Of a stretch of 64,000 nt of DNA, positions 31,335-48,586 are shown one piece after another. Below the pieces are notes generated by a model. The model made no database searches. It was not told the origin of the DNA and was given only the letters and a program-made list of their open reading frames with translations. Location: contig NZ_ABOX02000007.1 in the NCBI RefSeq assembly GCF_000172555.1, forward strand, positions 1-64,000, in the 5' to 3' direction. Position numbers and translations under genes: made by a program. The DNA comes from Pedosphaera parvula Ellin514. GTDB taxonomy: Bacteria > Verrucomicrobiota > Verrucomicrobiia > Limisphaerales > Pedosphaeraceae. Position 1 is the stretch's first letter; every line of letters starts with the position of its first letter.

Positions 31335-32531
31335 TTAATGATCAACACCCAGCAGAACATTGTTGGCCGCCTTGCTTTGTTTTCCAACCGTTGCTTTCTT
31401 CTCAAGAATCTGGGTACGATCACGAATGAGCATATCAATGTTCTGTGAATCGACCACATAAACCCACCGCGCCAGCAAAAGTTCCTTCGCGAGCTTGTTT
31501 TGAAGCCTGTTTGTTTTCTCCCGAAATTCTTCGTCCAATGTTTTCTTTTCCTCAGCCGTTTCATTCCTGCCAACTGTGCGTTCCGCAGAAATATCCGCCG
31601 CAACGTTTACGGTCATGTGATAATTTCCATTTGGATTTCGATCACCTATTTTGAGCGTGTAGGAGAAGTTGTCGAACGTTTGGATTGTCAGCACGACTGG
31701 ATTTTTCAAACTTATTTGTGAGGCGACCGTATTGGGAATGACATCCGTGAAGCGGAGAAAACCAATCATTTCGACGGTTTGCGAGATTGTGTTCGCATCC
31801 AATACCTCTTCAGAACCGGATTTGTTATCGGCAAGGGTCCACGGACCTGACTGGGTTTCGCGCGAGACGCTCCAGGAATTGGCCATGTTTTGAGATACCG
31901 AGGAAATAAAACGAATACGTTCTATTTTAAAGAAATCCCTGCTTAGCCACGATTCGGGATCTGGCGTGGCACTGGAAAGTTCATTTGAGATCAGCAGAAC
32001 GGTCTCGGAATCCTTGGGCAAAAGGATATAACAGCCATCGAACAAGCCATGCAGCCCAAAAGGCACTCCTTTTTCTTCAGGGCGCAAGTGCCTTTTGCCC
32101 ACGAGCAGGGCTTCAATGAGCTTCCCCTGTCTGTCTTTAAATTCAAGCAGTGTGCCGCTGCCAGCTCCTTTGCCAGGTTCGTCCAACTCCACTTGAGGAA
32201 GCTCCGAATGTACAAACGTCTCGGCCTGCACCACCTTGATATCTCTTATTTTAATCAGCAAATCTTTAATTTGCTGGTAATTCGCCACGTAATCATTGCG
32301 CTCCCGTACGCACCAGATTCCGTTTGTATTAACCACATTAAAATCGGAGCCACCCTTGCCTTTGACGTGAATGACGGCGACATCATTTATTTTGAAATCC
32401 TTCAGCACTTTGTCACCCATCCTGGCCTCTCGAACGGTCCAGGATTCCCTCTTTTGATTCAGTAAGATCAGGCCAGCGCTGCCAATGATGGCCAACGCAA
32501 TCAGGACAAATATGAATTGCTTGCGATTCAT
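31335..32531 (-). CDS. DUF4340 protein of the GldFG-type ABC operon
   Basis: A protein of 398 residues with one N-terminal membrane helix (FIFVLIALAIIGSAGLILL) and a large beta-rich extracytoplasmic part. The pattern (VLKDFKINDVAVIHVKGKGG, NGIWCVRERNDYVANYQQIKDLL, then SWLSRDFFKIERIRFISS and YTLKIGDRNPNGNYHMTV) is that of DUF4340, a family found next to GldG/ABC-auxiliary genes. Its biochemical role is unknown. Its ATG overlaps the stop codon of the fused GldFG gene (ATGA), and it is the last gene of the four-gene set. Confidence 0.85.
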   Translation of the reverse strand: MNRKQFIFVLIALAIIGSAGLILLNQKRESWTVREARMGDKVLKDFKINDVAVIHVKGKGGSDFNVVNTNGIWCVRERNDYVANYQQIKDLLIKIRDIKVVQAETFVHSELPQVELDEPGKGAGSGTLLEFKDRQGKLIEALLVGKRHLRPEEKGVPFGLHGLFDGCYILLPKDSETVLLISNELSSATPDPESWLSRDFFKIERIRFISSVSQNMANSWSVSRETQSGPWTLADNKSGSEEVLDANTISQTVEMIGFLRFTDVIPNTVASQISLKNPVVLTIQTFDNFSYTLKIGDRNPNGNYHMTVNVAADISAERTVGRNETAEEKKTLDEEFREKTNRLQNKLAKELLLARWVYVVDSQNIDMLIRDRTQILEKKATVGKQSKAANNVLLGVDH

Positions 32532-35176
32532 TTAACACCTCTTCGTTTGGGTTTGATGAGGGCCAGGCCAAGCCCTGAAATCGCCACCACAATTGGCATT
32601 GTCCCGATATTCATGACTTTGGTCCAAAACTCCAAAGCTTCCGTGTCCTTGCTCAATTTCTTACGCACCAGCTTCAAATCCTTGCTCACTTCCACCAGGG
32701 ATTGCTGATATTTCTCCAACTCCTGCTCCTGTGCAGGTGATAGAATGATGCTTTGGTCCTGACTCCCTTCCTTGTGATTTCGCAGATCTTTGATCCTCTG
32801 CTCGGTTTCTCTCTGCTTGGTTTCCAGGATTTGAACCTTTTCCTCCCATTGTTTACCGGCCTTGGCTTGCATATCTTTGACCCGCGTAAAGGGACGGCTC
32901 ATGCTGGCGCGGCTCCGTGAACTGATTAAATCATCGTCGCCTGCAAATTGTTCCACCAGACTTTGGATAAAGTTAAGGTTGCCATTCATGGACTGCACAG
33001 TGCGGTGTCCCATCGCATTCTGAACTCTCACGCACACCTTATCGTTCAACATGTCAGTATCCGCCACCAGAATTACATCACCCCTGCCTTTCGACTCTTT
33101 CAACTGGCTGACGTTTGGAGACTTTTCCTTTTCGTCATTGCTTTTGGGTTTCCCATCCGGAAAAGCAGTTTTGAATTTTCCCGTCAACTGAATGGCAAGC
33201 GGGTATTGCACATTCGAAGGTTTGAAATTCCTCAGGATTTGCTCACTGGCAGCAGTTGAGATCATGCTGTCTACCAACTCTGAATTGGGAGAGCATTTGA
33301 CCAGGACAGTTTCCTTGAGTCCCTCCGCAGGTTTGCCCATAAACGCACCGGCAAATGGCAAAACGAGATTATCAATCTGACTGGTGGCAACGTCATTTTC
33401 ATTAATTCCCGACCGTGTGACCAACAGCAGTGTTGGCATGGTATCACCACTTTGCAAATTGCGGCTGGCGAACGATGTGTCGGCTGCCACCCTGTTGACA
33501 TCCATTTCGAGGCCCCATGCCTTGAGCAGTTTATCCAGTGAAGACTGGGCTGCATTGTCACCTGCCATGGTAAAGTTTTGATTTCGATCATGCTTTTGAT
33601 CGAAGTAGGCATGGGGATCCAGGAATGCGAGTAACTTCCCACCACGCAGCACAAACTGATCAATGGCATATTGTGCCGTGTCGGAAATATCCACTGGATG
33701 CGCCACTAAAAGAACGTTGATGTCATCATCGATATTCGAGGCAGTTAGAGGGACATCCTTGATGGTAAAGTCTTTTTTTAATTCCGTGACAAAGGCCCAT
33801 TCCTCCGCGCGAGCTTCTCCCGGGTGCATCAGCATGCTGGGTTGCTCGCCATATACTGGCAGCCCTGTCATTATACCAATCACCGGCCGTTTACGATTCG
33901 CCACCCGGCCGATGGCGCGGGAAATGTCGTATTCCAGCAATCGTTCCCGCTCTGGCGGCAACCATGGCAGCGCGAATTTCTCATCGAACATGCTGGCCAC
34001 CATGCCCAGGTAAATCTTGGCACTGCCAAACGGACCCGTCGCACGGCCTTCGACACCGTTAAGTCGCGCCGAATCTTCAGCATCTGAATCCGGCTTGGGA
34101 TCAAACTTTTGAATAACCAATTTATCCTTGGCCTGCTGTTTATACTCGCCCAACAGATCCTCGATATGTCGAGCATAAGTCCTTAGGGCCGGTGGCATGG
34201 CGTTATCGGCCTGCGTGCAATAAAAGCGGAGGGTAACGTGCGAGTTGAGCTTGCCGATAATGTTCTTCGTGCCCGATGAAAGCGTGTGAGCTTTATCCGC
34301 CGTGACATCAACACGAACTTTGACCGCGCTGGTAATTATGTAAGCCGCAACCATGACCACAAACATGGCCGCAACACCGGCAGTGGAGTAGAGTGCAGCT
34401 TCGAAGCCTTTTTGCTTCCGAATTTTGTCCATGGAAACTGCCCGGTGACTGCGAATGATTACCCCGTTGGTGAACAGCGCGAAACCGATGATCAGCAAAA
34501 AGAAAATCACGTTTCGCGAGTCCAACATTCCCGTTGTGAATGGTTGAAAATGAGTCATTACACTCAAAGAGGAAACGAGATCCACCAACCACGGCTTATC
34601 CATCCGGGTGAGCAAATTTGTCACCGGCGGAAATCCACACAATACAAGAAACAGGCAAATGACGACCGAAACGATAAAGCTCACAACCTGGTTACGTGTC
34701 ATGGCCGAGGTCATGCAACTTATTGCCAGATAAGTTCCAGCCATTAGGAAGCTGCCGACGTACGCAGCAATAATCACCCCATTATCGGGTGATCCGAGGT
34801 AATTAACGGTAATGATGACCGGAAAGGTCAGTGCCAATGCAAGCCCCAGAAAAATCCAGGATGCCAGAAATTTCCCGAGGATGGCCTGCCAGATGGTAAC
34901 TGGCTTCGTTAGCAGGAGCTCGATCGTACCGACACGCCGCTCCTCTGCCCAAAGCCTCATTCCCACGCAGGGAACAAGGAATAGGTAAAGCCACGGGTGC
35001 CACGTAAAAAAGGAATCCAGATTGGCCTGGCCGCTCTCGAAAAACCTGCCGACCGTGAAGGTGAAAAAACCCGTCAATAGCAAAAAGATGACAATGAAGA
35101 CATAGGCGACGGGTGAAGAAAAATATCCGCCCAGTTCGCGTTTTGTTATGGCTCTGATGTTCGCGACGGAGTTCAT
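32528..35176 (-). CDS. Fused ABC-2 permease (GldF-like) and GldG-like auxiliary protein
   Basis: A membrane protein of 882 residues that joins two components usually separate in Bacteroidetes. Residues 1-250 form an ABC-2 type permease with six hydrophobic segments (for example YVFIVIFLLLTGFFTF and VVSFIVSVVICLFLVLCGF). A further helix near 265-290 (GVAAMFVVMVAAYIITSAV) leads into the ABC-auxiliary (GldG/DUF7088-like) domain (about 295-800; KRPVIGIMTGLPVYGEQ, FVLRGGKLLAFLDPHAYFD). A charged coiled coil and a last membrane helix (about 850-875) follow. The substrate is unknown; gliding need not follow, since homologues occur in non-gliders. It overlaps both neighbours by ATGA. Confidence 0.88.
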   Translation of the reverse strand: MNSVANIRAITKRELGGYFSSPVAYVFIVIFLLLTGFFTFTVGRFFESGQANLDSFFTWHPWLYLFLVPCVGMRLWAEERRVGTIELLLTKPVTIWQAILGKFLASWIFLGLALALTFPVIITVNYLGSPDNGVIIAAYVGSFLMAGTYLAISCMTSAMTRNQVVSFIVSVVICLFLVLCGFPPVTNLLTRMDKPWLVDLVSSLSVMTHFQPFTTGMLDSRNVIFFLLIIGFALFTNGVIIRSHRAVSMDKIRKQKGFEAALYSTAGVAAMFVVMVAAYIITSAVKVRVDVTADKAHTLSSGTKNIIGKLNSHVTLRFYCTQADNAMPPALRTYARHIEDLLGEYKQQAKDKLVIQKFDPKPDSDAEDSARLNGVEGRATGPFGSAKIYLGMVASMFDEKFALPWLPPERERLLEYDISRAIGRVANRKRPVIGIMTGLPVYGEQPSMLMHPGEARAEEWAFVTELKKDFTIKDVPLTASNIDDDINVLLVAHPVDISDTAQYAIDQFVLRGGKLLAFLDPHAYFDQKHDRNQNFTMAGDNAAQSSLDKLLKAWGLEMDVNRVAADTSFASRNLQSGDTMPTLLLVTRSGINENDVATSQIDNLVLPFAGAFMGKPAEGLKETVLVKCSPNSELVDSMISTAASEQILRNFKPSNVQYPLAIQLTGKFKTAFPDGKPKSNDEKEKSPNVSQLKESKGRGDVILVADTDMLNDKVCVRVQNAMGHRTVQSMNGNLNFIQSLVEQFAGDDDLISSRSRASMSRPFTRVKDMQAKAGKQWEEKVQILETKQRETEQRIKDLRNHKEGSQDQSIILSPAQEQELEKYQQSLVEVSKDLKLVRKKLSKDTEALEFWTKVMNIGTMPIVVAISGLGLALIKPKRRGVK

Positions 35177-36132
35177 TTGGCTTTTTCTTTCGCGGTGTCA
35201 GGCATTGTAATGTTGCGGAAAACTTCATCCAACCGGCCTTCTTCGGTGTGCAATTCCTCAACCTGCCAGCCATTGGCCGCGGTTAGCACGTTGCGGACGA
35301 GTTCGCCATTTCGGTTTTCCGAGCTGGGATAGACACGCGCCCAGACTTCGCCGTTTTCCTCTTTGACGATAACCGCCTTGCGAGCGTTGGGAATGCTGGA
35401 AAGCCGCTCCGTCAATTGCGCGCCCGAAACACCGCGGACGGCCAGCAGAACCGCCCCGCCAAACTCGGATTTTCGTTTCAATTCCTGTGGCGTGCCGTTG
35501 GCCACGATCTGCCCCCGGTCAATTATGATCGCGCGCGAACAAACAGCTTCCACTTCCTCCAGGATATGAGTGGAAAAAATAATCGCCTTTCGCTCACCCA
35601 TCCGCCGGATCAAACCGCGGATTTCGTGCTTCTGGTTCGGATCCAACCCATCGGTCGGTTCATCCAACACCAATACGTCGGGATCATGGATGATCGCCTG
35701 GGCAAAACAAGTGCGATGGCGATATCCTTTGGAAAGCGTGTCAACACTTTGATATAGCACCGATTCAAGAAAGCACATTTCAACGACACGATTAACCGCC
35801 TTTTTTCGATCATCCCCCCGCAATCCGCTCAGCTCTGCGCAGAAGCCCAGAAAACTTCGGACCGTCATATCCACATAGACCGGGGCGCTTTCAGGAAGAT
35901 AGCCGATCAGCCGTTTGACTGGAATCGGATCTGTCGTCACGTCATAGCCACCAACGCTGACCTTGCCACCGGAGGGCGCGATGAAACCTGTGATCATGCG
36001 CATGGTGGTCGACTTGCCAGCACCGTTAGGTCCCAGAAAACCCAACACCTCTCCCCGCTCAACACTGAAAGAAACGTCGTTTACGGCGAGTTTTAGGCCG
36101 AACGCTTTAGTGAGGTTTTCGGCTTTTATCAT
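35173..36132 (-). CDS. ABC transporter ATP-binding protein (GldA-like)
   Basis: The 319-residue ATPase partner of the fused permease. It has Walker A GPNGAGKST near residue 35, a signature region with LSKGYRHRT in place of LSGGQ, as in GldA and related ABC-2 ATPases, Walker B VLVLDEPTDGLDPNQ and the switch His in IFSTHILEEVE. The last 90 residues form a C-terminal extension typical of this subfamily. Its start overlaps the stop codon of the FKBP gene, and its stop codon overlaps the permease start, so stoichiometric translation is likely. Confidence 0.93.
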   Translation of the reverse strand: MIKAENLTKAFGLKLAVNDVSFSVERGEVLGFLGPNGAGKSTTMRMITGFIAPSGGKVSVGGYDVTTDPIPVKRLIGYLPESAPVYVDMTVRSFLGFCAELSGLRGDDRKKAVNRVVEMCFLESVLYQSVDTLSKGYRHRTCFAQAIIHDPDVLVLDEPTDGLDPNQKHEIRGLIRRMGERKAIIFSTHILEEVEAVCSRAIIIDRGQIVANGTPQELKRKSEFGGAVLLAVRGVSGAQLTERLSSIPNARKAVIVKEENGEVWARVYPSSENRNGELVRNVLTAANGWQVEELHTEEGRLDEVFRNITMPDTAKEKAK

Positions 36133-37103
36133 TTGGCAGGATTAGAGGATGAATTTTGCCCTTCCAGCCCCTCCAGTCCGTGCCCCACGGTTCCAGTACC
36201 GATCCGGGGATCGCCCGGCTGCGCAATGGCAACCAGTTCCAGTTCGTAAATAAGGGTCGAGTCCGGGCCAATACTTAACGCCGCCTCTCCTTCGTTGCCA
36301 TAGCCAAGGTTGGCAGGCACAAAAACTTCCCACTTCGATCCTACTTTCATCCTTTGCAAAGCCTCCTGCACCCCCTGAATTCCACCGTTACTTCGGGTCG
36401 GAAAATGCTCTTTACTGTCAAAGATCATGCCGTCAATTAACTTTCCTCGAAGTTTAACGAGCAAGAGGTCGTTAGTTGTCGGAATTTTACCGTTACCCGT
36501 TTGAATAATCCGGTACTGCAAGCCATCTGGCAGCACCTTGATCCCTGGAGCTTTGGCGTTTTTGGCGAGAAATGCTTCGCCAGCCTCTCTGTTCTTTTTT
36601 GACTGTTTAGCTGCTGTGTAGGCTTCTGCCTTCATGAAAAGCGACTCGATTTCGGATTCCTGGATTTTAGTCGGCTTTCCGGTCATTACATCCTTGAGGC
36701 CTTGGGCAAGGGCGTCAACGTCTATATCTGCGCCAACGCGTTTGAGTTGTTCACCCTTTCTCACCCCCAACGCATAGCTGATTTTCTCCCGGCCTTTTAC
36801 AGTCTGCGTGGCAACGGCCAATCCATTTGCCCGCGCCTGATTGAGAGCGTCAGTAATCTCAGAGTCTTTAAATTGGCTGGGCTTTCCCAGTAATATATCC
36901 TTGAGGGCTCGGGCAGCCACATCGGTATCCACATCCGCGCCAGCGGGCTTGAGCTCCAAGCCCATTTGCATCCCCAGAGCATAACTGACTTTTTCCTTGT
37001 CTGGCGGCGCAATCGGCGTTGTGGCGGGAGCAAGCTCCTCAGCCATGGTTGAAAATGCCATGAATGCGACTAGGATTATCGCTTTTGATAACTTCAACTT
37101 CAT
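36129..37103 (-). CDS. FKBP-type peptidyl-prolyl isomerase, FkpA/Mip-like with duplicated N-terminal domain
   Basis: A protein of 324 residues that catalyses cis-trans isomerisation at proline bonds of envelope proteins. A signal peptide (IILVAFMAFSTMA) is followed by two copies of the FKBP_N motif: KVSYALGMQMGLELK at about 40 and KISYALGVRKGEQLK at about 108. FkpA and Mip have one. The FKBP_C catalytic domain (about 200-300) has VKLRGKLIDGMIFDS, GVQEALQRMKVGSKWEVFVP and a YELELVAI end. It is the first gene of the four-gene ABC set and overlaps the ATPase gene by four bases, suggesting that it folds or assembles the periplasmic parts of that complex. Confidence 0.9.
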   Translation of the reverse strand: MKLKLSKAIILVAFMAFSTMAEELAPATTPIAPPDKEKVSYALGMQMGLELKPAGADVDTDVAARALKDILLGKPSQFKDSEITDALNQARANGLAVATQTVKGREKISYALGVRKGEQLKRVGADIDVDALAQGLKDVMTGKPTKIQESEIESLFMKAEAYTAAKQSKKNREAGEAFLAKNAKAPGIKVLPDGLQYRIIQTGNGKIPTTNDLLLVKLRGKLIDGMIFDSKEHFPTRSNGGIQGVQEALQRMKVGSKWEVFVPANLGYGNEGEAALSIGPDSTLIYELELVAIAQPGDPRIGTGTVGHGLEGLEGQNSSSNPAK

Positions 37104-37206: not shown

Positions 37207-37238
37207 ATCCGCGCAACTCTTAGCAAAGTTGCGCGGAT
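37207..37238 (-). terminator. Hairpin after GH25 copy A
   Basis: ATCCGCGCAAC and GTTGCGCGGAT form a perfect 11-bp stem with a 10-base loop, about 55 bases past the stop codon of GH25 copy A. The same hairpin occurs after each of the three GH25 genes (39635-39666 and 42123-42154). The following bases are not T-rich, so it may end transcription or protect the mRNA 3' end. Confidence 0.65.
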
Positions 37239-37294
37239 TTGAATTCATTTGAAAAGGAGATTTAATTCCGGACTTTCAGGCCCGGCTCCCTGGC

Positions 37295-38053
37295 TTACAG
37301 CCCTTGATAGGCGATCAGCTCAGAGAGGGACAGAGGATAGGCATCCAGGTCCACGTTGCCGGAGATGCCGCAAATGGCGCCCGTGGAGCTGACCTGCCAG
37401 TAGGTCCAGTTATTACCAGTGCCAGGACCCCAGGCATTGCAGCTGGTGCAGCAGGTCCAGGGATGGCCGGTATACAGATTCCCGCCATTGTAGTTGGCGA
37501 TCCAGGCCGACAAGGTGATGCCGGTATTCAGATCACAGGCGCCAGTGCCGGCGCTGCAATAGATGACGGGATGCATGAAGGTCGTTTTCTTGGCCTTGAC
37601 GTCAGCGGACCAGGCGTTAAACCAGGCGGTGTAGGTGGTGGCGCCGACATGGCCGCCGAAGACCTCAAAATCCGCCATCGGATAGAGGGACTTGCCATCG
37701 GTAGTGATCTTGGATCCGGCAAAGGCCCAGAAATAATTAGCCTCGGTGGCAGGACTGATCTGGTCAGGGCGGCAGAAATCATAAGCGCCCATTTGCAGAC
37801 CAGCGGCCTTGCCGTTGCTCATGTCGGAGTTGTAGACGGAGTCCTGATAATAATTGCCTTCGGTGGCTTTGACGAAGGCATACTTTGGTCCGCAACCAGC
37901 AACGCTTGTCCAGTTGGGTGAGCCTTGATAGCTCGAGACGTCGATGCCGAGCAGGTTGTTCGCCTGCGCGCTTTGTGACCCGACGGACATGGCCACTGCA
38001 GCGGCCAGCGCGAGTGATGATTTCATCACAGTGGTTTTTAGTGAGGCTTTCAT
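37295..38053 (-). CDS. Secreted GH25 muramidase, copy A
   Basis: A lysozyme-type enzyme of 252 residues predicted to cut the MurNAc-GlcNAc bond of peptidoglycan. A signal peptide (SSLALAAAVAMSVGSQSAQA) precedes the GH25 barrel, which begins with GIDVSSYQGSPNW (catalytic Asp), then FVKATEGNYYQD and PMADFEVFGG, the DxE active-site pair. It carries eight cysteines (for example TCCTSC), unusually many for the family, suggesting disulfides after export. The frame is open upstream to 38194, but the ATG at 38053 precedes the signal peptide. Two further copies lie at 39722 and 42211. Use on own or foreign cell walls cannot be told apart from the sequence. Confidence 0.9.
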   Translation of the reverse strand: MKASLKTTVMKSSLALAAAVAMSVGSQSAQANNLLGIDVSSYQGSPNWTSVAGCGPKYAFVKATEGNYYQDSVYNSDMSNGKAAGLQMGAYDFCRPDQISPATEANYFWAFAGSKITTDGKSLYPMADFEVFGGHVGATTYTAWFNAWSADVKAKKTTFMHPVIYCSAGTGACDLNTGITLSAWIANYNGGNLYTGHPWTCCTSCNAWGPGTGNNWTYWQVSSTGAICGISGNVDLDAYPLSLSELIAYQGL

Positions 38054-38741
38054 TCTTTGTTCTGCTTTCTTTGTTGCAGGAGGCTTTTTGTTGAGGTCGT
38101 GAAATCTCCCTGCTCCTGCCTTTGATACGGGATTGCACGTTTGAACCGATGAGTTCAAATCATCAAAAATCACACTTGAAAAAGAGGCCACCATATTTTT
38201 TGAAATAAAAAACGGTGCAAACTACTGGTCAACTGGTTTTCGTTTGAACAGCGGATGGACTTGCGGGAGGGCTGGCCGCACAACCCGCAAAATATTAAGT
38301 TTGGTTTATGACACGGAAACGTCTCGCAACCTAAGTTTTCTGGCTGACATTTTTGAGTGTTATGCTTCCAAGCAAAGGGCATAAGGAGAACGTCTTTATA
38401 GATGCGCCTTACGGCTTGGTAGAATTAAGTTGAAAATTAAAGTAGCTGACAATTTCGGTCAATAATTTAGAACCTACATGTTCATGTAGCATTAAATAAA
38501 AACTCTCCAAGTTTGGGACGGGAATTCGTGGGGTGATGGTGTAGCGGATGCCACACCGGGCTTTCTTGCACTGTTGTAGCTGCTGATTTTTCAAGCCATC
38601 ACTTGTTACTCCTGCCGCATACAGGTTACTTTATTTAACAGGAGAAACCGCCCGCCCCTGCATCGGTCGGGCAAGGCAACAGCAGCGCGAAGCTTCGTTT
38701 GACCGAGCCACCACCCCGAGTTGGCCGGCCATCAGATGTTA
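38054..38741. other. Upstream region of GH25 copy A and spacer
   Basis: About 690 bases without a gene. The first 450 are shared with the region upstream of copy B (40481-40930), including an inverted repeat at 38140-38159. The stretch of about 38510-38700 differs between copies. The last 40 bases before the anchored-protein stop codon are shared again (GAGCCACCACCCCGAGTTGG). Confidence 0.6.
38101..38159 (-). promoter_or_regulatory. Conserved element upstream of GH25 copy A
   Basis: Between 48 and 106 bases upstream of the start, GAAATCTCCCTGCTCCTGCC (38101-38120) is followed by the inverted repeat TTTGAAC-CGATGA-GTTCAAA (38140-38159). A second, mutually exclusive pairing is GATGA with TCATC (38148-38164). 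Copy B has the same element; copy C has a related one. It could be an operator or a leader-RNA structure. Confidence 0.45.
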
Positions 38742-39548
38742 TCAGGGATGGGCGCCATTGGCATCAGCGCCATGGGTGCCGGGGTCACCATACATTTGCA
38801 GCACACGAAAGATGGGGCCCACCTCCACATTGGTGCCCAACTGATTGGCTGAAGCCATGTCCAACGCTTCCTGCGCCGCATTCAGGATCTGGTCGCGAAA
38901 CTGACCGGGCGACTGCTGCTCCAGATTTTTGGCCAACTCCAGCACCTCGGAAGGCACGGCCGTGGTCTGGAGCGTCTGCAGCGTGGCGGCCTGGGCTTCA
39001 GGGCCGCCGATTTGCTTGAGCGTATCGATCAGACTCGCGCGCAGGGAGGAGTAACCCAGTTGATCCCCGCCGGCCATCTCGGCGTAGTCGGCATTGGCAT
39101 TCTTATTGAGGGAATCCTGGATGGCGGGCACGGCCGATGCGCCTTGCTGCACCAACTCCGCCAAAATCTCTTTGAATCGCTCCGCCTGCTCCTTCGTGAT
39201 CGGGCCGCGGGTGCCGCTCAGTTCGGTCAGTTCATCCACCAGTTGAGCGGGACTGCGGGGTTCCGGCTGAACCGCCATGGCCGGGGCAGGAACTGCCACC
39301 GGGGATGGCGCCGGGAAATTCGCCCAACTGGGCGTCGCTTTGAGGGCCGGATGGGTTTTGACTTCCGGCACGGAGGCCACCGGAGCCAGCGGTTCGGGTT
39401 TGGGGGCGCTGGTGAATGATTTGAAAGCCAGAATAACACCAATGATGACAACTGCAAAAAGGATGGCACCCGGCAGGACGCCACTGCGCGCTGGTTGGGT
39501 TTTTGACGGGGAATTACGCGAACCGGAGGAGTTGGGAGTTCCGTTCAT
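38742..39548 (-). CDS. Membrane-anchored protein of unknown function, copy A
   Basis: A 268-residue protein that I do not recognise. Residues 1-22 are polar and Ser/Pro-rich, one membrane helix follows (about 23-45; GAILFAVVIIGVILAF), then a Pro/Ala-rich linker (about 46-95) and a helical domain (about 100-250) with HEAT-like helix pairs (ELVQQGASAVPAIQDSL, SSLRASLIDTLKQIGGPEA). The topology suggests an inner-membrane anchor with the helical domain in the periplasm. It differs from copy B (41230-42036) by only about three residues, all in the linker region. In transcription order it follows GH25 copy B, and GH25 copy A follows it. A role tied to the muramidases, such as an inhibitor, is speculation from position alone. 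Confidence 0.75.
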   Translation of the reverse strand: MNGTPNSSGSRNSPSKTQPARSGVLPGAILFAVVIIGVILAFKSFTSAPKPEPLAPVASVPEVKTHPALKATPSWANFPAPSPVAVPAPAMAVQPEPRSPAQLVDELTELSGTRGPITKEQAERFKEILAELVQQGASAVPAIQDSLNKNANADYAEMAGGDQLGYSSLRASLIDTLKQIGGPEAQAATLQTLQTTAVPSEVLELAKNLEQQSPGQFRDQILNAAQEALDMASANQLGTNVEVGPIFRVLQMYGDPGTHGADANGAHP

Positions 39549-39634
39549 AGCCAGGTAATTTAATGAAGTTCAAAGAAAAGGCGAGCAGGAAAAGACATGC
39601 CATCACTCGGCACTGGTGTCAATTTATCGCAAAG

Positions 39635-39666
39635 ATCCGCGCAACTCTTAGCAAAGTTGCGCGGAT
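39635..39666 (-). terminator. Hairpin after GH25 copy B
   Basis: The same perfect 11-bp stem and 10-base loop as at 37207-37238, about 55 bases past the stop codon of GH25 copy B and also 5' of the copy A anchored-protein gene's transcription direction boundary. Confidence 0.65.
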
Positions 39667-39721
39667 TTGAATTCATGTAGAAGGGAGATTAACTCCAGAT
39701 TTCCCTACCTTCCGTCTTAGC

Positions 39722-40480
39722 TTACAGCCCTTGATAGGCGATCAGCTCAGAGAGAGAGAGGGGATAAGCATCCAAGTCGCAGTTGCCGGAGATGCCGCAA
39801 ATGGCGCCCGTGGAGCTCACCTGCCAGTAGGTCCAGTTATTACCTGTGCCAGGAGCCCAGGCATTGCAGCCGGTGCAGCAGGTCCAGGGATGGCCGGTAT
39901 ACAGATTCCCGCCATTGTAGTTCGCGATCCAAGCCGAGAGGTAGATGCCCGTATTCAGATCGCAGGCGCCAGTGCCGGCGCTGCAATAGATGACGGGATG
40001 CATGAAGGTCGTTTTCTTGGCCTTGACGTCAGAGGACCAGGCGTTGAACCAGGCGGTGTAGGTGGTGGCGCCGACATGGCCGCCGAAGACCTCAAAATCC
40101 GCCATCGGATAGAGGGACTTGCCATCGGTAGTGATCTTGGATCCGGCAAAGGCCCAGAAATAATTGGCCTCGGTGGCAGGACTGAGCTGGTCAGGGCGGC
40201 AGAAGTCATAGGCGCCCATTTGCAGACCGGCAGCCTTGCCGTTGCTCATGTCGGAGTTGTAGCTGGCGTCCTGATAATAATTGCCTTCGGTGGCTTTGGC
40301 GAAGGCATACTTTGGTCCGCAACCAGCAACGCTTGTCCAGTTGGGGGAACCTTGATAGTGCGAGACGTCAATGCCGAGCAGGTTGTTCGCCTGCGCGCTT
40401 TGTGACCCGACGGACAGTGCCAATGCGGCAGCCAGTCCGAGTGATGATTTCATCACAATGCTTTTTAGTGAGGCTTTCAT
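39722..40480 (-). CDS. Secreted GH25 muramidase, copy B
   Basis: A 252-residue paralogue of copies A and C. It has the same signal-peptide type (SSLGLAAALALSVGSQSAQA), GIDVSHYQGSPNW, FAKATEGNYYQD and PMADFEVFGG, so all catalytic residues are kept. It differs from copy A by scattered substitutions, including SSY to SHY near the active site, DSVYNSD to DASYNSD, and GNVDLD to GNCDLD, which adds a ninth cysteine. A GTG at 40492 would add four residues; the ATG at 40480 matches copy A. It is preceded by the same upstream region as copy A. Confidence 0.9.
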   Translation of the reverse strand: MKASLKSIVMKSSLGLAAALALSVGSQSAQANNLLGIDVSHYQGSPNWTSVAGCGPKYAFAKATEGNYYQDASYNSDMSNGKAAGLQMGAYDFCRPDQLSPATEANYFWAFAGSKITTDGKSLYPMADFEVFGGHVGATTYTAWFNAWSSDVKAKKTTFMHPVIYCSAGTGACDLNTGIYLSAWIANYNGGNLYTGHPWTCCTGCNAWAPGTGNNWTYWQVSSTGAICGISGNCDLDAYPLSLSELIAYQGL

Positions 40481-41229
40481 GGTATCTTCCACTTTCTCTT
40501 TTTGCAGGAGGCTTTTGGTTGAGGTCGTGAAATCTCCCTGCTCCTGCCTTTGATACGAGATTGCACGTTTGAACCGATGAGTTCAAATCATCAAAAATCA
40601 CACTTGAAAGAGAGGCCACCATATTTTTTGAAATAAAAAACGGTGCAAACTACTGGTCAACTAGATTTCGTTTGAACGGCGAATGGATTTACGGAACGGC
40701 TCACCGCACAACCCGCAAAATATTAAGTCTGGTTTACGACACGGAAACGTCTTGCAACCGGGGTTTTCTGGATAGCATCTGCGACTTTTTTTCCCAAGCA
40801 AGGGGCATAAGGAGAATGTCTTTACAGATGCGCCTTACGGCTTGGTAGAATTAATTTTGAAATTAAAGCAGCCGGCAATTTCGGTCAATAATTTAGAAAC
40901 TACATATTCATGTAACACCAGATAAAACCATCCAAATTAGGAAGAGAATTTAAGGAAGCGAGCCTGTGCGAGGTTGTGCTGGGAGTTGAAAATGGGAATC
41001 CGAACATTTTCGGCAACCCAATGCCAACAGAAGTAAAACTTGTGGCGGGTATTGATGTAAAATTCTCAAGAGTTCAAAAAAGGCAGGCACAAAATGCGAT
41101 TTCAAAAATTCCAAACTATCACTAAAGAATGAATCGCCAAACGTTTTATCTCCTTTTACAAAGAAATACATTCATTCTCCTGAGCGTGAAATGAGCCACC
41201 ACCCCGAGTTGGCCGCCCATCAGATATTA
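40481..41229. other. Upstream region of GH25 copy B and spacer
   Basis: About 750 bases without a gene. Up to about 40930 it matches the region upstream of copy A, with the conserved element at 40529-40587. The stretch of about 40930-41190 is unique. The final 40 bases match the end of the copy A spacer. Short open frames inside have no protein character. Confidence 0.6.
40529..40587 (-). promoter_or_regulatory. Conserved element upstream of GH25 copy B
   Basis: The same GAAATCTCCCTGCTCCTGCC segment (40529-40548) and inverted repeat TTTGAAC-CGATGA-GTTCAAA (40568-40587) as upstream of copy A, at the same distance from the start codon (within one or two bases). Confidence 0.45.
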
Positions 41230-42036
41230 TCAGGGATGGGCGCCATTGGCATCAGCGCCATGAGTGCCGGGGTCACCATACATTTGCAGCACACGAAAGA
41301 TGGGGCCCACCTCCACATTGGTGCCCAACTGATTGGCTGAAGCCATGTCCAACGCTTCCTGCGCCGCATTCAGGATCTGGTCGCGAAACTGACCGGGCGA
41401 CTGCTGCTCCAGATTTTTGGCCAACTCCAGCACCTCGGAAGGCACGGCCGTGGTCTGGAGCGTCTGCAGCGTGGCGGCCTGGGCTTCAGGGCCGCCGATT
41501 TGCTTGAGCGTATCGATCAGACTCGCGCGCAGGGAGGAGTAACCCAGTTGATCCCCGCCGGCCATCTCGGCGTAGTCGGCATTGGCATTCTTATTGAGGG
41601 AATCCTGGATGGCGGGCACGGCCGATGCGCCTTGCTGCACCAACTCCGCCAAAATCTCTTTGAATCGCTCCGCCTGCTCCTTCGTGATCGGGCCGCGGGT
41701 GCCGCTCAGTTCGGTCAGTTCATCCACCAGTTGAGCGGGACTGCGGGGTTCCGGCTGAACCGCCATGGCCGGGGCAGGAACTGCCACCGGGGATGGCGCC
41801 GGGAAATTCGCCCAACTGGGCGTCGCTTTGAGGGCCGGATGGGTTTTGACTTCCGGCACGGAGGCCACCGGAGACACCGGTTCGGGTTTGCGGGCGCTGG
41901 TGAATGATTTGAAAGCCAGAATAACACCGATGATGACAACTGCAAAAAGGATGGCACCCGGCAGGACGCCACTGCGGGCTGGTTGGGTTTTTGACGGGGA
42001 ATTACGCGAACCGGAGGAGTTGGGAGTTCCGTTCAT
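41230..42036 (-). CDS. Membrane-anchored protein of unknown function, copy B
   Basis: A 268-residue near-identical copy of the protein at 38742-39548, with the same single membrane helix (about 23-45), Pro/Ala-rich linker and HEAT-like helical domain. Visible differences are SARKPEPVSP here against SAPKPEPLAP in copy A. The intact frame and the near-absence of even silent changes point to very recent duplication or gene conversion. It lies 175 bases downstream of the GH25 copy C stop codon, with the hairpin at 42123-42154 between them. Confidence 0.75.
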   Translation of the reverse strand: MNGTPNSSGSRNSPSKTQPARSGVLPGAILFAVVIIGVILAFKSFTSARKPEPVSPVASVPEVKTHPALKATPSWANFPAPSPVAVPAPAMAVQPEPRSPAQLVDELTELSGTRGPITKEQAERFKEILAELVQQGASAVPAIQDSLNKNANADYAEMAGGDQLGYSSLRASLIDTLKQIGGPEAQAATLQTLQTTAVPSEVLELAKNLEQQSPGQFRDQILNAAQEALDMASANQLGTNVEVGPIFRVLQMYGDPGTHGADANGAHP

Positions 42037-42122
42037 AGCCAGGTAATATAATGAAGTTCAAAGAAAAGGCGAGCAGGAAAAGACAGGCCATCACTCGGCA
42101 CTGGTGTCATTTTATCGCAAAG

Positions 42123-42154
42123 ATCCGCGCAACTTTTGGTAAAGTTGCGCGGAT
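42123..42154 (-). terminator. Hairpin after GH25 copy C
   Basis: The third copy of the 11-bp hairpin, with the stem unchanged and the loop altered (TTTTGGTAAA instead of TCTTAGCAAA). Conservation of the stem but not the loop supports a structural role. Confidence 0.65.
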
Positions 42155-42210
42155 GTGAATTCATTTGAAAAGGAGATTTAATTCCGGGCTTTCAGGCCCG
42201 GCTCCTTAAC

Positions 42211-42954
42211 TTACAATCCCTGATAGGAGATCAGCTCAGCGAGGGACAGCGGATAGGCATCCAAGTCCACGTTGCCGGAGATGCCGCAAATGGCGCCCGT
42301 GGAGCTCACCTGCCAGTAGGTCCAGTTATTACCTGTGCCAGGAGCCCAGGCATTGCAGCCGGTGCAGCAGGTCCAGGGATGGCCGGTATACAGATTCCCG
42401 CCATTGTAGTTGGCGATCCAGGCCGACAAGGTGATGCCGGTATTCAGATCACAGGCGCCAGTGCCGGCGCTGCAATAGATGACGGGATGCATGAAGGTCG
42501 TTTTCTTGGCCTTGACGTCAGCGGACCAGTCGTTAAACCAGGCCGTGTAGGTGGTGGTGCCGACATGGCCGCCGAAGACCTCAAAATCCGCCATCGGATA
42601 GAGGGACTTGCCATCAGTGGTGATCTTGGATCCGGCAAAGGCCCAGAAATAATTGGCCTCGGTGGCAGGACTGATCTGGTCGGGGCGGCAGAAATCATAA
42701 GCGCCCATTTGCAGACCAGCGGCCTTGCCGTTGCTCATGTCGGAGTTGTAGACGGAGTCCTGGTAATAATTGCCTTCGGTGGCTTTGACGAAGGCATACT
42801 TTGGTCCGCAACCGGCAACGCTTGTCCAGTTGGGTGAGCCTTGATAGCTCGAGACGTCGATGCCGAGCAGGTTGTTCGCTTGTGCGCTTTCCAACCCGAC
42901 GGACATGGCCACGGCAGCAGCCAGGGCGAGTGATGATTTCATCATGGTTTTCAT
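42211..42954 (-). CDS. Secreted GH25 muramidase, copy C
   Basis: A 247-residue paralogue, the first of the array in transcription order. The start MKTMMKSSLALAAAVAMSVGLESAQA is shorter than in A and B, but the mature part is nearly that of copy A (GIDVSSYQG, FVKATEGNYYQDSVYNSD, PMADFEVFGG, GNVDLDAY). The catalytic Asp and DxE residues are kept. Its upstream region differs from those of A and B except for a short related element, so it is likely the ancestral or separately regulated copy. No anchored-protein copy lies upstream of it. Confidence 0.9.
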   Translation of the reverse strand: MKTMMKSSLALAAAVAMSVGLESAQANNLLGIDVSSYQGSPNWTSVAGCGPKYAFVKATEGNYYQDSVYNSDMSNGKAAGLQMGAYDFCRPDQISPATEANYFWAFAGSKITTDGKSLYPMADFEVFGGHVGTTTYTAWFNDWSADVKAKKTTFMHPVIYCSAGTGACDLNTGITLSAWIANYNGGNLYTGHPWTCCTGCNAWAPGTGNNWTYWQVSSTGAICGISGNVDLDAYPLSLAELISYQGL

Positions 42955-43857: not shown

Positions 43858-44940
43858 ATGAAAAAACCATTCTTAATGGCAGCATTTAGCCTGGCTGCAT
43901 TAGCGGGTACTCTTGGCACGATAGGTAATCTCAAAGCTGCCGAATCCGAAGCTCCTTCCCTAAGGTCTTCGAGCCTTGCTTCACTGATCAAAGGAATTCC
44001 AGAAATTCAATTTGAAACAAATTTCGTCGATCTTGGAAAAACATCCGGCGGGGAAACTATAACCGGCGTGTTCAAATTTAAAAACGTTGGGGGTGGCACC
44101 TTAAAAGTGGAACCTCCAGTGCCAAGTTGTGACTGTACCGATTCAAAAGTAAGGCCGGACACGCTTGCGCCTGGCGAAAGCGGGGAAGTCACATATACGA
44201 TCAAGTTGGATCATGCACTTAATGGGCAAAGGTACATTAGTGTGCGTTCCAACGATCCTAAAACACCGCTTGTTCAGCTTACGATGCAAATAGACTATAC
44301 CCCGCTTTACCAACTCACCCCAAAAGCACTGGTGATGGTGTTACCAGCAGGAAAAGATGAAGCCCAAGGAAGCTTCATGATCACTCGCACAGATAATAAG
44401 CCTTTGCAAATTGACCGGGTAACCAGTTCCGAGAAATGGATCAGCGCAACATTAGCCCCTTCCACCAACCAACAAGCGAACTCGAATCGAATCCGGGTTA
44501 CTCTTCACCGTCCGCCAGGTCCGCCTGCACTGTTCAAGGCCGCGATCCAAATGTGGAGTAGCAGTCAGCCGGATCAAGCACTTCAAACCATGTCGATGTC
44601 GGGTGAAATCCTGGGAGAGCTGGCCGCCGTTCCACCGAGGTTTTACTGGGTCTTGCCCGATTTTGGAAAAGATAAATCAAAATATCCGGACGAAGCTCTC
44701 ACCAAAAAGGTGGAATTGACTTCCGTGCTGGGTCATGAAGTCGAACTTAAAAACGCCTCCAGTAACATCAAGGGCTTGAGTGTGCAAATTACGCCCAAGG
44801 GCGCCGGAAAAAAGTTCGAGATGATTCTCAAATTTGATGAATTGCCCCAGGAATTCATTAACGGGAAAGTCACGGTCGAGACCTCTTTGGCCTCGCTTCC
44901 CAAAATGGAGATACCGATTACAATCAGCGTGCCCCAGTGA
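43858..44940 (+). CDS. Secreted DUF1573 protein
   Basis: A protein of 360 residues with a signal peptide (FLMAAFSLAALAGTLGTIGNLKA). The segment of about 50-145 is a DUF1573 domain, an Ig-like/ASH-type beta sandwich: IQFETNFVDLGKTSGGE, FKFKNVGGGTLKV, SCDCTDSKV, TLAPGESGEV and RYISVRSNDPKTP. The remaining 210 residues look like further beta sandwiches of similar build. The family is common in Planctomycetes, Verrucomicrobia and Bacteroidetes, with no known biochemical role. It appears to be a single gene, with the SDR gene 100 bases downstream on the same strand. Confidence 0.85.
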   Translation: MKKPFLMAAFSLAALAGTLGTIGNLKAAESEAPSLRSSSLASLIKGIPEIQFETNFVDLGKTSGGETITGVFKFKNVGGGTLKVEPPVPSCDCTDSKVRPDTLAPGESGEVTYTIKLDHALNGQRYISVRSNDPKTPLVQLTMQIDYTPLYQLTPKALVMVLPAGKDEAQGSFMITRTDNKPLQIDRVTSSEKWISATLAPSTNQQANSNRIRVTLHRPPGPPALFKAAIQMWSSSQPDQALQTMSMSGEILGELAAVPPRFYWVLPDFGKDKSKYPDEALTKKVELTSVLGHEVELKNASSNIKGLSVQITPKGAGKKFEMILKFDELPQEFINGKVTVETSLASLPKMEIPITISVPQ

Positions 44941-45040: not shown

Positions 45041-46648
45041 ATGTGTATTCGGCCGCGTGAGAACCTAAACTGCTGCATCACTGTCATTAAAACATCTTCA
45101 GAGAACAAATCGACGGCCCGGAACGAAGGCTTGAGCGAAAAACTGCGAGCCGCGACCGAATTACTGGAAGCCGTTTCGGCTGATCGTACTCTCCTGTCCC
45201 AAATGTCCAGGGAGGACAGGGCACGGCTGTTACAAGCTGCTGGCCGGGTCTATTCGCCGGACGTTAGCGAACGGCGTCGCCTCAACAAGGCGCAGCAACG
45301 CCAGCGGAAAGCCGAGAAATTGGAACGTGATCAGGAAGTGCTGGCAGTTACCGGCATTCGCGAATTGCGGCGCAAGCCGGTTTTCACCACGCCCAATCCG
45401 CTGCCGCCAGCGAGCGTTGAACAGAACGAGGTGAAAGATCCGGATTTCCGCGAGGTTGTGGAGCCGCAAAACTGTTACATCTGCAAACGCGACTATTCCC
45501 AGATTCATCATTTCTACGACCAGTTGTGCCCACCGTGCGCGGAAGTGAATTATCGCAAGCGCACTGAGCTGGCTGACTTGAGCGGACGCGTGGCGCTGTT
45601 GACCGGTGGCCGGGTTAAGATCGGTTACCAGGCAGGCATCAAATTGTTGCGCGCGGGAGCGCAACTGATCGTCACCACCCGTTTTCCCCGTGACTCAGCG
45701 GCCCGATATGCGCAGGAACCGGATTTTGCCCAGTGGGGACATCGATTGGAAATCTTCGGCCTCGATTTGCGCCACACTCCTTCGATTGAAGCGTTTTGTT
45801 GCCACCTGCTGGCGACACGCGAGCGGTTGGATTTTATCATCAGCAATGCCTGCCAGACGGTGCGACGCCCGCCCGATTTCTATCGTCACATGATGGAGCA
45901 GGAAACGGCTGCGCTACGGGATCTTCCGGTTCATGCCCAGCGACTGTTGGGTGCTTACGAGGGATTGCGTGGTTATCGATTGTTGCCCGAAGGCGATGGC
46001 ACGGCTGCGTTGACGGATCAACCGCTTACAGCAGTGGCCGGACTGACTCATGCCGCTGCCCTCTCGCAACTGCCACTTCTGCCGGATGAACTGAAAGCTC
46101 AAAAAGATTTATTCCCCGAAGGCCGGCTGGATCAGGATTTACAACAGGTTGATTTGCGCGAGCGGAATTCCTGGCGCTTTACTCTCTCAGAGGTGCCGAC
46201 GGTGGAATTGCTGGAAACACAATTGGTCAATAGCGTCGCTCCATTTTTGCTTAATGCCCGATTGAAACCGCTGATGCTCCGAACGCCGGAACGGGACAAG
46301 CACATCGTCAATGTGTCAGCGGTGGAGGGACAGTTCTATCGCAAGTTCAAAACCACCCGGCATCCGCATACGAACATGGCCAAGGCCGCGCTCAATATGA
46401 TGACCCGCACCTCAGCAGCGGATTATCACGCGGATGGGATTCATATGAACAGCGTGGATACCGGTTGGGTTTCTGACGAAGATCCGGCAGCCATTGCGGC
46501 CCGCAAGACCCGCGACCACCGCTTTCACCCGCCGCTGGATATCGTGGACGGCGCGGCGCGTATTGTGGATCCGATCATTAGTGGCTTCAACACCGGCACA
46601 CATGTCTGGGGACAGTTTTTGAAAGATTATCAGCCTACGGATTGGTAG
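45041..46648 (+). CDS. Atypical SDR-family oxidoreductase with N-terminal Cys4 motif
   Basis: A 535-residue cytoplasmic protein. A charged helical N-terminus (about 30-110) leads to a Cys4 motif (CYICKRDY at about 146 and CPPCAEVNY at about 164) that may bind zinc. From about 180 it is a short-chain dehydrogenase/reductase: [16 protein letters not shown] (NAD(P) binding), [11 protein letters not shown], then [12 protein letters not shown] and [12 protein letters not shown]. In the usual YxxxK position the lysine is kept but Tyr is replaced by Thr; an upstream YRKFK might compensate. An insertion of about 80 residues follows the NAC motif. The substrate is unknown. The first start codon in frame is used; the true start may be later. 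The 3' end converges on the ECF sigma gene, with two bases between. Confidence 0.75.
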
Positions 46649-46650
46649 GT

Positions 46651-48330
46651 TTATTGCGCCCCCATCTCACGAAGAGTCTGTGCGGCTTTCGCATTCTGAT
46701 TTGCAGCGGCGCGTTTTAGACCGGATACCACGGCATTTCGTACGCTCTGATTGGTGGTGGTTGATAGGTTAATCAACGCATCAATCGCCGTTGAGTTTCC
46801 TGATTCGGCTGCGTTTCCCAGCCCATTTGCAGCCAAAAACCAGAGCGGTTGGGCATTGCCATCCATGGCAACGGCAGCAATCGCTTCAATCGCCTTTTCA
46901 TTCCCACTATCCGCTGCAGGTTTTAAGGCTGATAAAGTGCTGCTGAGAGGTATATTGATATTGAACCTTTTCGGATCGATCAGCAGATCCACAAGCCCTT
47001 CGTGCCCATGACCCGTCAGATCGCCGATCGAGCTTATGGCATTCCCTTTTAGATAATCGATCTGAATTGCTCGACCGAAAGCTTTGAGGGCATTTTCGTT
47101 ACCTTTGGCGGCTTCTTCTCCCAAAATATCGAACGCGGAGTGCAGTGGTGCGAATAGTTGTCGGGAAAAATCGCCACGCTCCTGGTCAGTTTTTAAGGTC
47201 GGGACTTTGGCATTAAACTCTTGATGCAGGGTCGCGGAAAGCTCTGTCAATTTTCCCAATGCGGTCGGATCACCTTGCGCGACTCCCTCTGCCAATCGTC
47301 GGGCAAGCACTTCTTGCTCAGAAAACGGAGATGTATTTAGCAAAGCTTGAGTCGGAGCCGTCTGTGCTTCCAATGGCTTCTGGAGTGCCAATTGTTTTCG
47401 CAGTTGGCTTAATTCGTTGTTAAGCCTGACCTTTTCGGTTCGGAGTTGCTCCAATTCGTGAGTTTCAATTTGATTGAAGCCGGGCTTGGCTTCAGGCGCG
47501 CGCACGACCTTAACTGCCTGATGCTCCCTCAATATGTCGACTTGCCGATTCTGACTGGCAATTTGATACCATTGCACGGCGACAACTGCAGCGACGGCGA
47601 CGCTGGCCGCGATTTTTATTTTTGTCCATGCCATAACTTTTAAGGTTCCTTTCACCAAGGTTATTAGCGAGGAGGCGAGACCTGGTCCGCTGAAGGCCGC
47701 TGCAGTTACTGAAGTCAGAAGCCCGGCAGGCGCGGCGTGAACAGCATTGGCCGAAATCATTGCGGTTATTGCCACAGCCGAAAGCACCACGCCGCGTTTG
47801 GCAAAAAGCCGTCGCAATTTATCCACGGCTCGAGAAACTCGCTTTTGTGCGGTATCGGTATCCACTCCCAAGGCAATTCCCACATCCCTGAGGGGCTTTT
47901 GCTCGAAAAATCGCAACACCAATGCGTCGCGATCTTTCTGGCAAAGTTGAGATATGGCCTCATCCAAAAATGAAGCCATCTCTTCCCACTCAGGATTCGA
48001 TGCGGGTTCCCGCTGGATCATGGTTTCCATGTGAGCCTCATTTTCGCGCTGAATTCGCCGGCAGATGGTTCTCAACTCGGCGGTTGCCGCGTAACGAACC
48101 GTCTTTAGGAGCCAACCGGGAAGAATCGTTCCTTGTCGAATGGTGCCGGCTTTTTGAGCCAGTATGATAAAAGTTGCCTGGGTGATTTCCTCGGCCAAAT
48201 GCGGATTGCGCACCTGACGCATGGCGGCGGAGTAAACGAGATTGAGATGACGGGCGACGAGCACCTCAAAGGCCTTTTCAGATCTTTGGCTTACGTACTC
48301 CTGCAAAATTCCCATGTCGTCCAATGCCAT
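46651..48330 (-). CDS. ECF sigma factor with membrane-spanning C-terminal extension
   Basis: A 559-residue protein. Residues 1-170 are an extracytoplasmic-function sigma-70 factor: region 2 with [20 protein letters not shown] and [16 protein letters not shown], and region 4 with [17 protein letters not shown] and [21 protein letters not shown] hydrophobic segment (about 180-205) and a second ([17 protein letters not shown], about 240-260) follow, then a coiled coil (about 280-320) and a helical repeat region (about 340-555). The extension may tether the factor to the membrane and sense something outside, replacing a separate anti-sigma factor. Upstream codons to 48387 are open, but [13 protein letters not shown] at 48330 is the natural start. 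Confidence 0.85.
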
Positions 48331-48586
48331 TCCACTGGTATATGACCACCAAAGGCAGAATCCGACATTATTTCTTTGGGTAGCCACTCTTTTTCAAAGC
48401 AGTCTCGTCCATTCACCATTGAAGATAAAGTGACAGAAGATAGTCCGCGAAAATTATGGAAGTTGCGTGAGGAGGTCGTCCCTTTGAAATGAACCAGCCT
48501 CGCGGGGAAATAGAGGTTAATCCTGTCTGCCAAAGCGCGGAAGTTTGTTGTTGCGTTGCAGCGTGGATTGGGGTGTCGTAGGTGGT

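Follow-up and report, generated by a model that had tools for sequence, protein, structure and literature searches.

The stretch analysed here, referred to as the window, comprises 64,000 nucleotides of Pedosphaera parvula Ellin514 (contig NZ_ABOX02000007.1, positions 1 to 64,000 of the forward strand) and encodes a tandem array of GH25 muramidases alternating with a predicted membrane-anchored alpha-helical protein, here called the anchor. The genes lie on the minus strand at 37,295-42,954 in the order GH25, anchor, GH25, anchor, GH25, and the direct repeats are spaced by 2427 and 2489 bases. These coordinates and spacings agree with a first-pass annotation, made from the sequence alone, that had reported three GH25 and two anchored-protein genes alternating as tandem repeats. 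Beyond the array on the same strand are genes for an FKBP-type prolyl isomerase and for an ATP-binding cassette (ABC) system of the Gld type. Our searches of the open-access literature listed no paper describing this locus. The features are as follows.

42211-42954, minus strand: GH25 muramidase A (247 amino acids, secreted-looking; PF01183 95.2 bits; active-site residues aligned to 1jfx)
42125-42152, minus strand: 3' hairpin after GH25 A (pattern search; covariation)
41230-42036, minus strand: anchored alpha-helical protein, copy 1 (268 amino acids)
39722-40480, minus strand: GH25 muramidase B (secreted-looking; frame opens at GTG 40492; PF01183 93.5 bits)
39637-39664, minus strand: 3' hairpin after GH25 B (pattern search; covariation)
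38742-39548, minus strand: anchored alpha-helical protein, copy 2 (268 amino acids; 99.3% nucleotide identity to copy 1; fold prediction)
37295-38053, minus strand: GH25 muramidase C (secreted-looking; frame opens at 38194; PF01183 95 bits)
37209-37236, minus strand: 3' hairpin after GH25 C (pattern search; covariation)
36129-37103, minus strand: FKBP-type prolyl isomerase (324 amino acids, two FKBP_N stretches; Pfam)
35173-36132, minus strand: ABC ATPase, GldA-like (PF00005 97.3 bits)
32528-35176, minus strand: fused GldF-like membrane part and GldG-like part (882 amino acids; PF12679 and PF09822)
31335-32531, minus strand: DUF4340 protein (PF14238 42.1 bits)
43858-44940, plus strand: DUF1573 immunoglobulin (Ig)-like protein, divergently oriented (PF07610)

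The genome (G000; 7.41 Mb in 102 contigs, with the window on contig C7) was analysed within a comparison set of 293 genomes of the order, the others being labelled G004, G007, G131, G149, G164, G171 and so on. Membership of the GH25 family was assigned with PF01183 at a cut-off of 27 bits, and checks for neighbouring GH25, FKBP and anchor relatives were repeated in all six frames. Calls of export or membrane anchoring are hydropathy readings of N-termini.

The genes of the array do not stand alone. A conserved unit of GH25, FKBP isomerase, ABC ATPase, fused GldF-GldG and DUF4340 occurs in five of the 293 genomes, from three families. A search of all 293 genomes with the window FKBP, taking up to the seven best candidates per genome, gave six matches that stand apart (E at most 4.3e-67): G000:C7, G000:C36, G004:C92, G171:C76, G131:C195 and G149:C30. 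All six sit in GH25 loci. The 12-kb stretch of the next match (G131:C413, 2.4e-51) is free of GH25, and the remaining listed matches score lower. The FKBP gene is 157-218 bases from GH25 in G000:C7, G000:C36, G131:C195 and G149:C30, and in G004 and G171 only the anchor separates the two. The ABC ATPase then follows in five of the six (G000:C7, G004, G171, G131 and G149). Among the GH25 genes of P. parvula outside the array, only that on C36 has an FKBP of this type beside it. On this gene order, the steadier neighbour of the lysozyme is the predicted FKBP folding helper, rather than the anchor.

The window genes include the parts expected of a Gld-type ABC operon, with Pfam matches for an ABC ATPase, an ABC2 membrane part, an ABC_transp_aux part and DUF4340; we take the names GldA, GldF and GldG to apply to them. 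They differ from an ordinary Gld transporter in having GldF and GldG in one frame and in being headed by GH25 and FKBP. The single GldF-GldG frame was found in all four GH25 loci where this part is visible. P. parvula also has an ordinary Gld copy, on C11, with GldF and GldG in two frames. In a search of 146 genomes for the fusion, the other near-full-length matches among those listed have an internal stop, except G080:C41. Ten ordinary Gld loci were fetched, C11 included; all ten are without the fusion, and none has GH25, FKBP or an anchor relative in any of the six frames. Thus, the window locus is a second, specialised Gld-type locus. To our knowledge, the role of Gld-type ABC transporters with GldG and DUF4340 outside gliding bacteria is unsettled. 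Physical linkage of one copy to genes for muramidases and a foldase makes it possible to ask by experiment whether such machinery acts on peptidoglycan or on secreted wall enzymes.

Both FKBP_N and FKBP_C score above cut-off in the window FKBP, as in prolyl isomerases that we presume to be of the FkpA/Mip kind. It differs from these in its two FKBP_N stretches and in neighbouring GH25 in six loci. A PADLOC match of the same protein to AbiEii (12.9 bits) was taken as chance.

All three array GH25 proteins pass the PF01183 cut-off by a wide margin (93.5-95.2 bits). The structure 1jfx is that of the 1,4-beta-N-acetylmuramidase M1. When GH25 A is aligned with this solved muramidase, its first Asp, Asp-x-Glu pair and last Asp all correspond; B and C, for which the inner starts were set by similarity, contain the same acidic motifs. 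The aligned residues are presumably catalytic. The N-termini resemble Sec signal peptides. The earlier description of secreted-looking enzymes with intact active-site residues is thus upheld. Compared with bacterial muramidases such as M1, with which they share a full PF01183 match, the array enzymes are distinguished by their tandem arrangement, their setting in a verrucomicrobial Gld-type locus and several extra cysteines. No Pfam domain besides GH25 was found in the three proteins, and no trafficking or delivery domain was recognisable.

The genome as a whole encodes 19 PF01183 matches (two cut by contig ends), 12 of them in open frames of 548-689 amino acids. These twelve longer GH25 proteins are on contigs C5, C8, C13, C21, C22, C26, C43, C57, C68, C78 and C82. 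Eight of the long proteins were scanned for other domains: one has LGFP repeats, two have Ig and LamG domains, and two show weak FG-GAP matches. Within the order, PF01183 is present in 36 of the 293 genomes. The few Verrucomicrobia in which GH25 genes are unusually numerous may subsist on other bacteria or on bacterial remains. GH25 genes also occur in tandem without anchors, on G000:C8, G149:C158 and G149:C563.

In a PHROG scan of the array GH25 and the anchor, the GH25 resembles endolysins and the anchor has no match. A holin-endolysin cassette had been set aside in the first-pass annotation, and recurrence of the GH25-FKBP locus with cellular genes in five genomes bears on this question.

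The two kinds of gene in the array have diverged to different extents. The GH25 copies are 93-96% identical over 690 coding bases, with nonsynonymous (dN) and synonymous (dS) divergences of 0.0375 and 0.221 for A-B, 0.0152 and 0.118 for A-C, and 0.0297 and 0.153 for B-C. The resulting dN/dS ratios of 0.13-0.19 argue for purifying selection on the GH25 copies. The anchor copies are 99.3% identical over 807 bases (six differences in 804 bases, dS 0.015), and both frames are open. Identity along the repeats is a mosaic. In 100-column blocks, identity between the first two repeats is 96-100% over the anchor and 92% just upstream, falling to 75% around the GH25 end and, after the anchor, to 81% and then 39%. 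Near-identical anchors beside diverged GH25 genes imply either homogenisation of the anchors or an origin of these copies after the GH25 genes had duplicated. If toxin and antidote were matched in pairs, one would expect both to diverge jointly.

The anchor has a single strong hydrophobic stretch, starting at residue 24. At 268 amino acids it is shorter than three relatives of 388, 406 and 412 amino acids. A form of 263 amino acids in G149 ends at about the same point, and the short form thus looks like a stable type. Derivation from the long protein by a simple frameshift fails as an explanation, because no convincing C-terminal remnant is present beside either copy in the window. The anchor has no match in Pfam, PHROGs or PADLOC, none among solved structures at the limits used, and a single NCBIfam match far below cut-off. 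Nor did the window anchor match HEAT families in Pfam; that of G171 reached 17.6 bits for HEAT_2 against a cut-off of 27.7. AlphaFold2 predicts, with modest confidence, a membrane helix, a disordered stalk and helical repeats. A structure search with the model gave a best Z of 9.2 with a root-mean-square deviation of 18.3, below the chance level of helical repeats. The top-ranking structures are designed repeats and HEAT- or ARM-like chains, with no family singled out, and Foldseek returned no match at E up to 0.001. The anchored partner therefore belongs to no recognised family in these searches, as first proposed.

Relatives of the anchor are widespread when the 412-amino-acid form is the query (103 of the 293 genomes, E up to 1e-3); the window form, searched against 288 genomes of the phylum, matched only its own genome (E up to 1e-10). 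Four named relatives come from verrucomicrobial metagenome-assembled genomes. The window anchors group with those of G004, G171, G131, G149 and G164 in a 32-row tree (support 100/99), and GH25-linked rows as a clade of their own have support of 32/85 only. In five stretches (L100, L102, L103, L104 and L107) the anchor relative is beside or near a relative of the DUF1573 protein at 43858-44940. G004 and G171 also have a relative of this DUF1573 protein, on the same side of their GH25 locus.

Association of the anchor with GH25 is uneven. Among the six GH25-FKBP copies, three (window, G004 and G171) have the anchor next to GH25. It is 2.4 kb upstream of GH25 in G131, a position that follows from contigs C115 and C195 sharing 127 identical end bases inside one GH25 gene. 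No anchor lies between GH25 and FKBP in G131:C195 or in G149:C30 (where 335 upstream bases are visible), and none was found in the 16-kb stretch around the G000:C36 pair. In G149 and G164 the anchor sits on a contig (4.4 and 4.3 kb, respectively) that shows no GH25. Beyond the clade, we inspected 26 stretches of 3.6-17 kb around the strongest relatives, many weaker matches being left out, and none of the 26 contains GH25 or an FKBP of this type in any of the six frames. Most genomes with weaker matches are without any GH25, because only 36 of the 293 have it. The 16 GH25 matches of P. parvula outside the array likewise have no anchor relative in their fetched stretches. Whether anchor homologues occur mostly without GH25 neighbours, a question raised with the first-pass annotation, thus has a divided answer: they do in the wider family, and in the close clade four of six genomes have the anchor within 2.4 kb of GH25.

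A further shared feature is a hairpin 3' of the GH25 genes. A palindrome with the core CCGCGCAA...TTGCGCGG lies 57-58 bases past each array GH25 stop. The exact palindrome occurs at seven places in the genome, all seven 20-152 bases after a GH25 stop, and a backward control pattern has no occurrence there. Exact copies in G131 (two places) and G149 (two places) all follow GH25 genes; related hairpins follow GH25 in G131, G149 and G171, and that of G004 differs in sequence. Across 16 hairpin sequences, both sides have changed in nine of the 15 pairs, and five core pairs are invariant. A covariance model found nine sites in P. parvula at E < 1e-3 (among the best 150 of 2321 candidates), all after GH25 and all in its training set. 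Sites outside the training set follow GH25 genes at G131:C391, G149:C176 and probably also G149:C187. A sub-threshold Rfam match (E 0.056) was taken as chance.

Several results argue against a hairpin specific to GH25. Outside P. parvula the exact palindrome is present in 59 of the 293 genomes, at one to three places each, and the single places in G164 and G069 are on contigs without a listed GH25. The backward control pattern reached 9 in G227. The model also hits sites after other genes, for example immediately 3' of enolase in G003:C19 (2.2e-9) and following Amidase_2 proteins at G069:C337 and G007:C245. In G069, no model site below 1e-3 is on a contig with one of the seven GH25 matches listed for that genome. 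Soberly read, the hairpin is a terminator-like element, retained at the 3' side as GH25 genes duplicated; it may have a regulatory role. Its presence points away from simple read-through of the anchor from the upstream GH25, an argument tempered by a weak T-run on the minus strand.

We give about an even chance to a reading in which a secreted lysozyme and its neighbour were amplified in tandem within this second, specialised locus of the Gld ABC type, and in which the anchor has an accessory role, as a scaffold or a regulator. The lysozymes would be exported by Sec, and the FKBP may help fold these cysteine-containing enzymes in the periplasm. Extra GH25 copies could supply more enzyme, or slightly different enzymes. 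They may cut peptidoglycan outside the cell (of food or competitors) or in the cell's own wall so that the ABC machinery can work. The anchor would sit in the inner membrane, its helical repeats carried on a flexible stalk, and would scaffold or regulate envelope proteins of the locus rather than serve as a matched antidote for each enzyme. The sequence itself displays four parts of this reading: gene content, conservation, intact GH25 sites and low GH25 dN/dS.

Some points weigh against it. GH25 secretion, FKBP-dependent folding and the link to the ABC proteins are inferred. On G000:C36 the GH25-FKBP pair is without ABC genes (L117:7358-9431, in a 16-kb stretch), and G007, of the same genus, has no match to the array GH25. 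The anchor fold models are weak (mean predicted local distance difference test scores, pLDDT, of 66.7 and 59.4). A more specific partnership of anchor and GH25 is possible: the two were amplified together, GH25 is present in all six anchor-clade genomes against 36 of 293 overall (hypergeometric 2e-6, ignoring kinship), and all five genomes with at least nine PF01183 matches, in a search that capped the counts at 11, hold the anchor clade (hypergeometric 3e-10, ignoring kinship). This tracking of GH25-rich genomes makes some partnership likely, and is the best evidence that anchor and GH25 share one biology.

Such a partnership could take the form of a localisation or activation factor, with the anchor keeping the muramidase near the inner membrane or the ABC complex and regulating wall cutting. 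The tracking, the anchor within 2.4 kb of a GH25-FKBP locus in four of six genomes, and the predicted anchored helical-repeat structure with its long stalk fit this proposal. However, the anchor is not adjacent in three of the six GH25-FKBP units and its wider family lives without GH25, and we consider the proposal rather unlikely.

Improbable, in our judgement, is a lysozyme-handling envelope system, in which the fused-GldF-GldG ABC machine, the dedicated FKBP and the anchor would fold, place or release GH25 and the shared 3' hairpin may bind a common regulator. If true, it would be a previously undescribed system in genomes where GH25 has turned into a large arsenal.

The anchor might instead be a passenger, an unrelated envelope protein co-duplicated with GH25, shortened by decay and with no role for the enzyme. 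Its 268 amino acids (against 388-412 in three relatives) and the recent or homogenised state of its two copies are what this would predict. We hold it to be distinctly improbable, as the 263-amino-acid form of G149 ends at about the same point, both frames remain open with six differences in 804 bases, and the clade tracks GH25.

Least probable, with only a slight chance in our view, is the effector-immunity layout proposed in the first-pass annotation, in which the anchor would bind GH25 in the periplasm and shield the producer, like lysozyme inhibitors or the Imm-HEAT class: the alternation of genes and the presence of GH25 in all six anchor-clade genomes suit it, but GH25-FKBP units without an intervening anchor (G000:C36, G131:C195, G149:C30), tandem GH25 genes without anchors, the 16 matches outside the array, the 26 stretches, uniform anchors beside diverged GH25 and enzymes with only a GH25 domain by Pfam speak against it. 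HEAT-repeat immunity proteins are described in polymorphic toxin systems, including those of verrucomicrobia, in PMC3482391. The anchor resembles the Imm-HEAT proteins portrayed there in being a predicted helical-repeat protein beside a potentially toxic enzyme gene. It differs in its membrane anchor and long stalk, in not being constant beside the enzyme, and in that the enzymes are GH25-only by Pfam.

Also encoded in the window are a short-chain dehydrogenase (45041-46648) with a long N-terminal extension containing two Cys-x-x-Cys motifs, and a Sigma-70-type factor (46651-48387) whose long C-terminal part matches HEAT repeats below cut-off.

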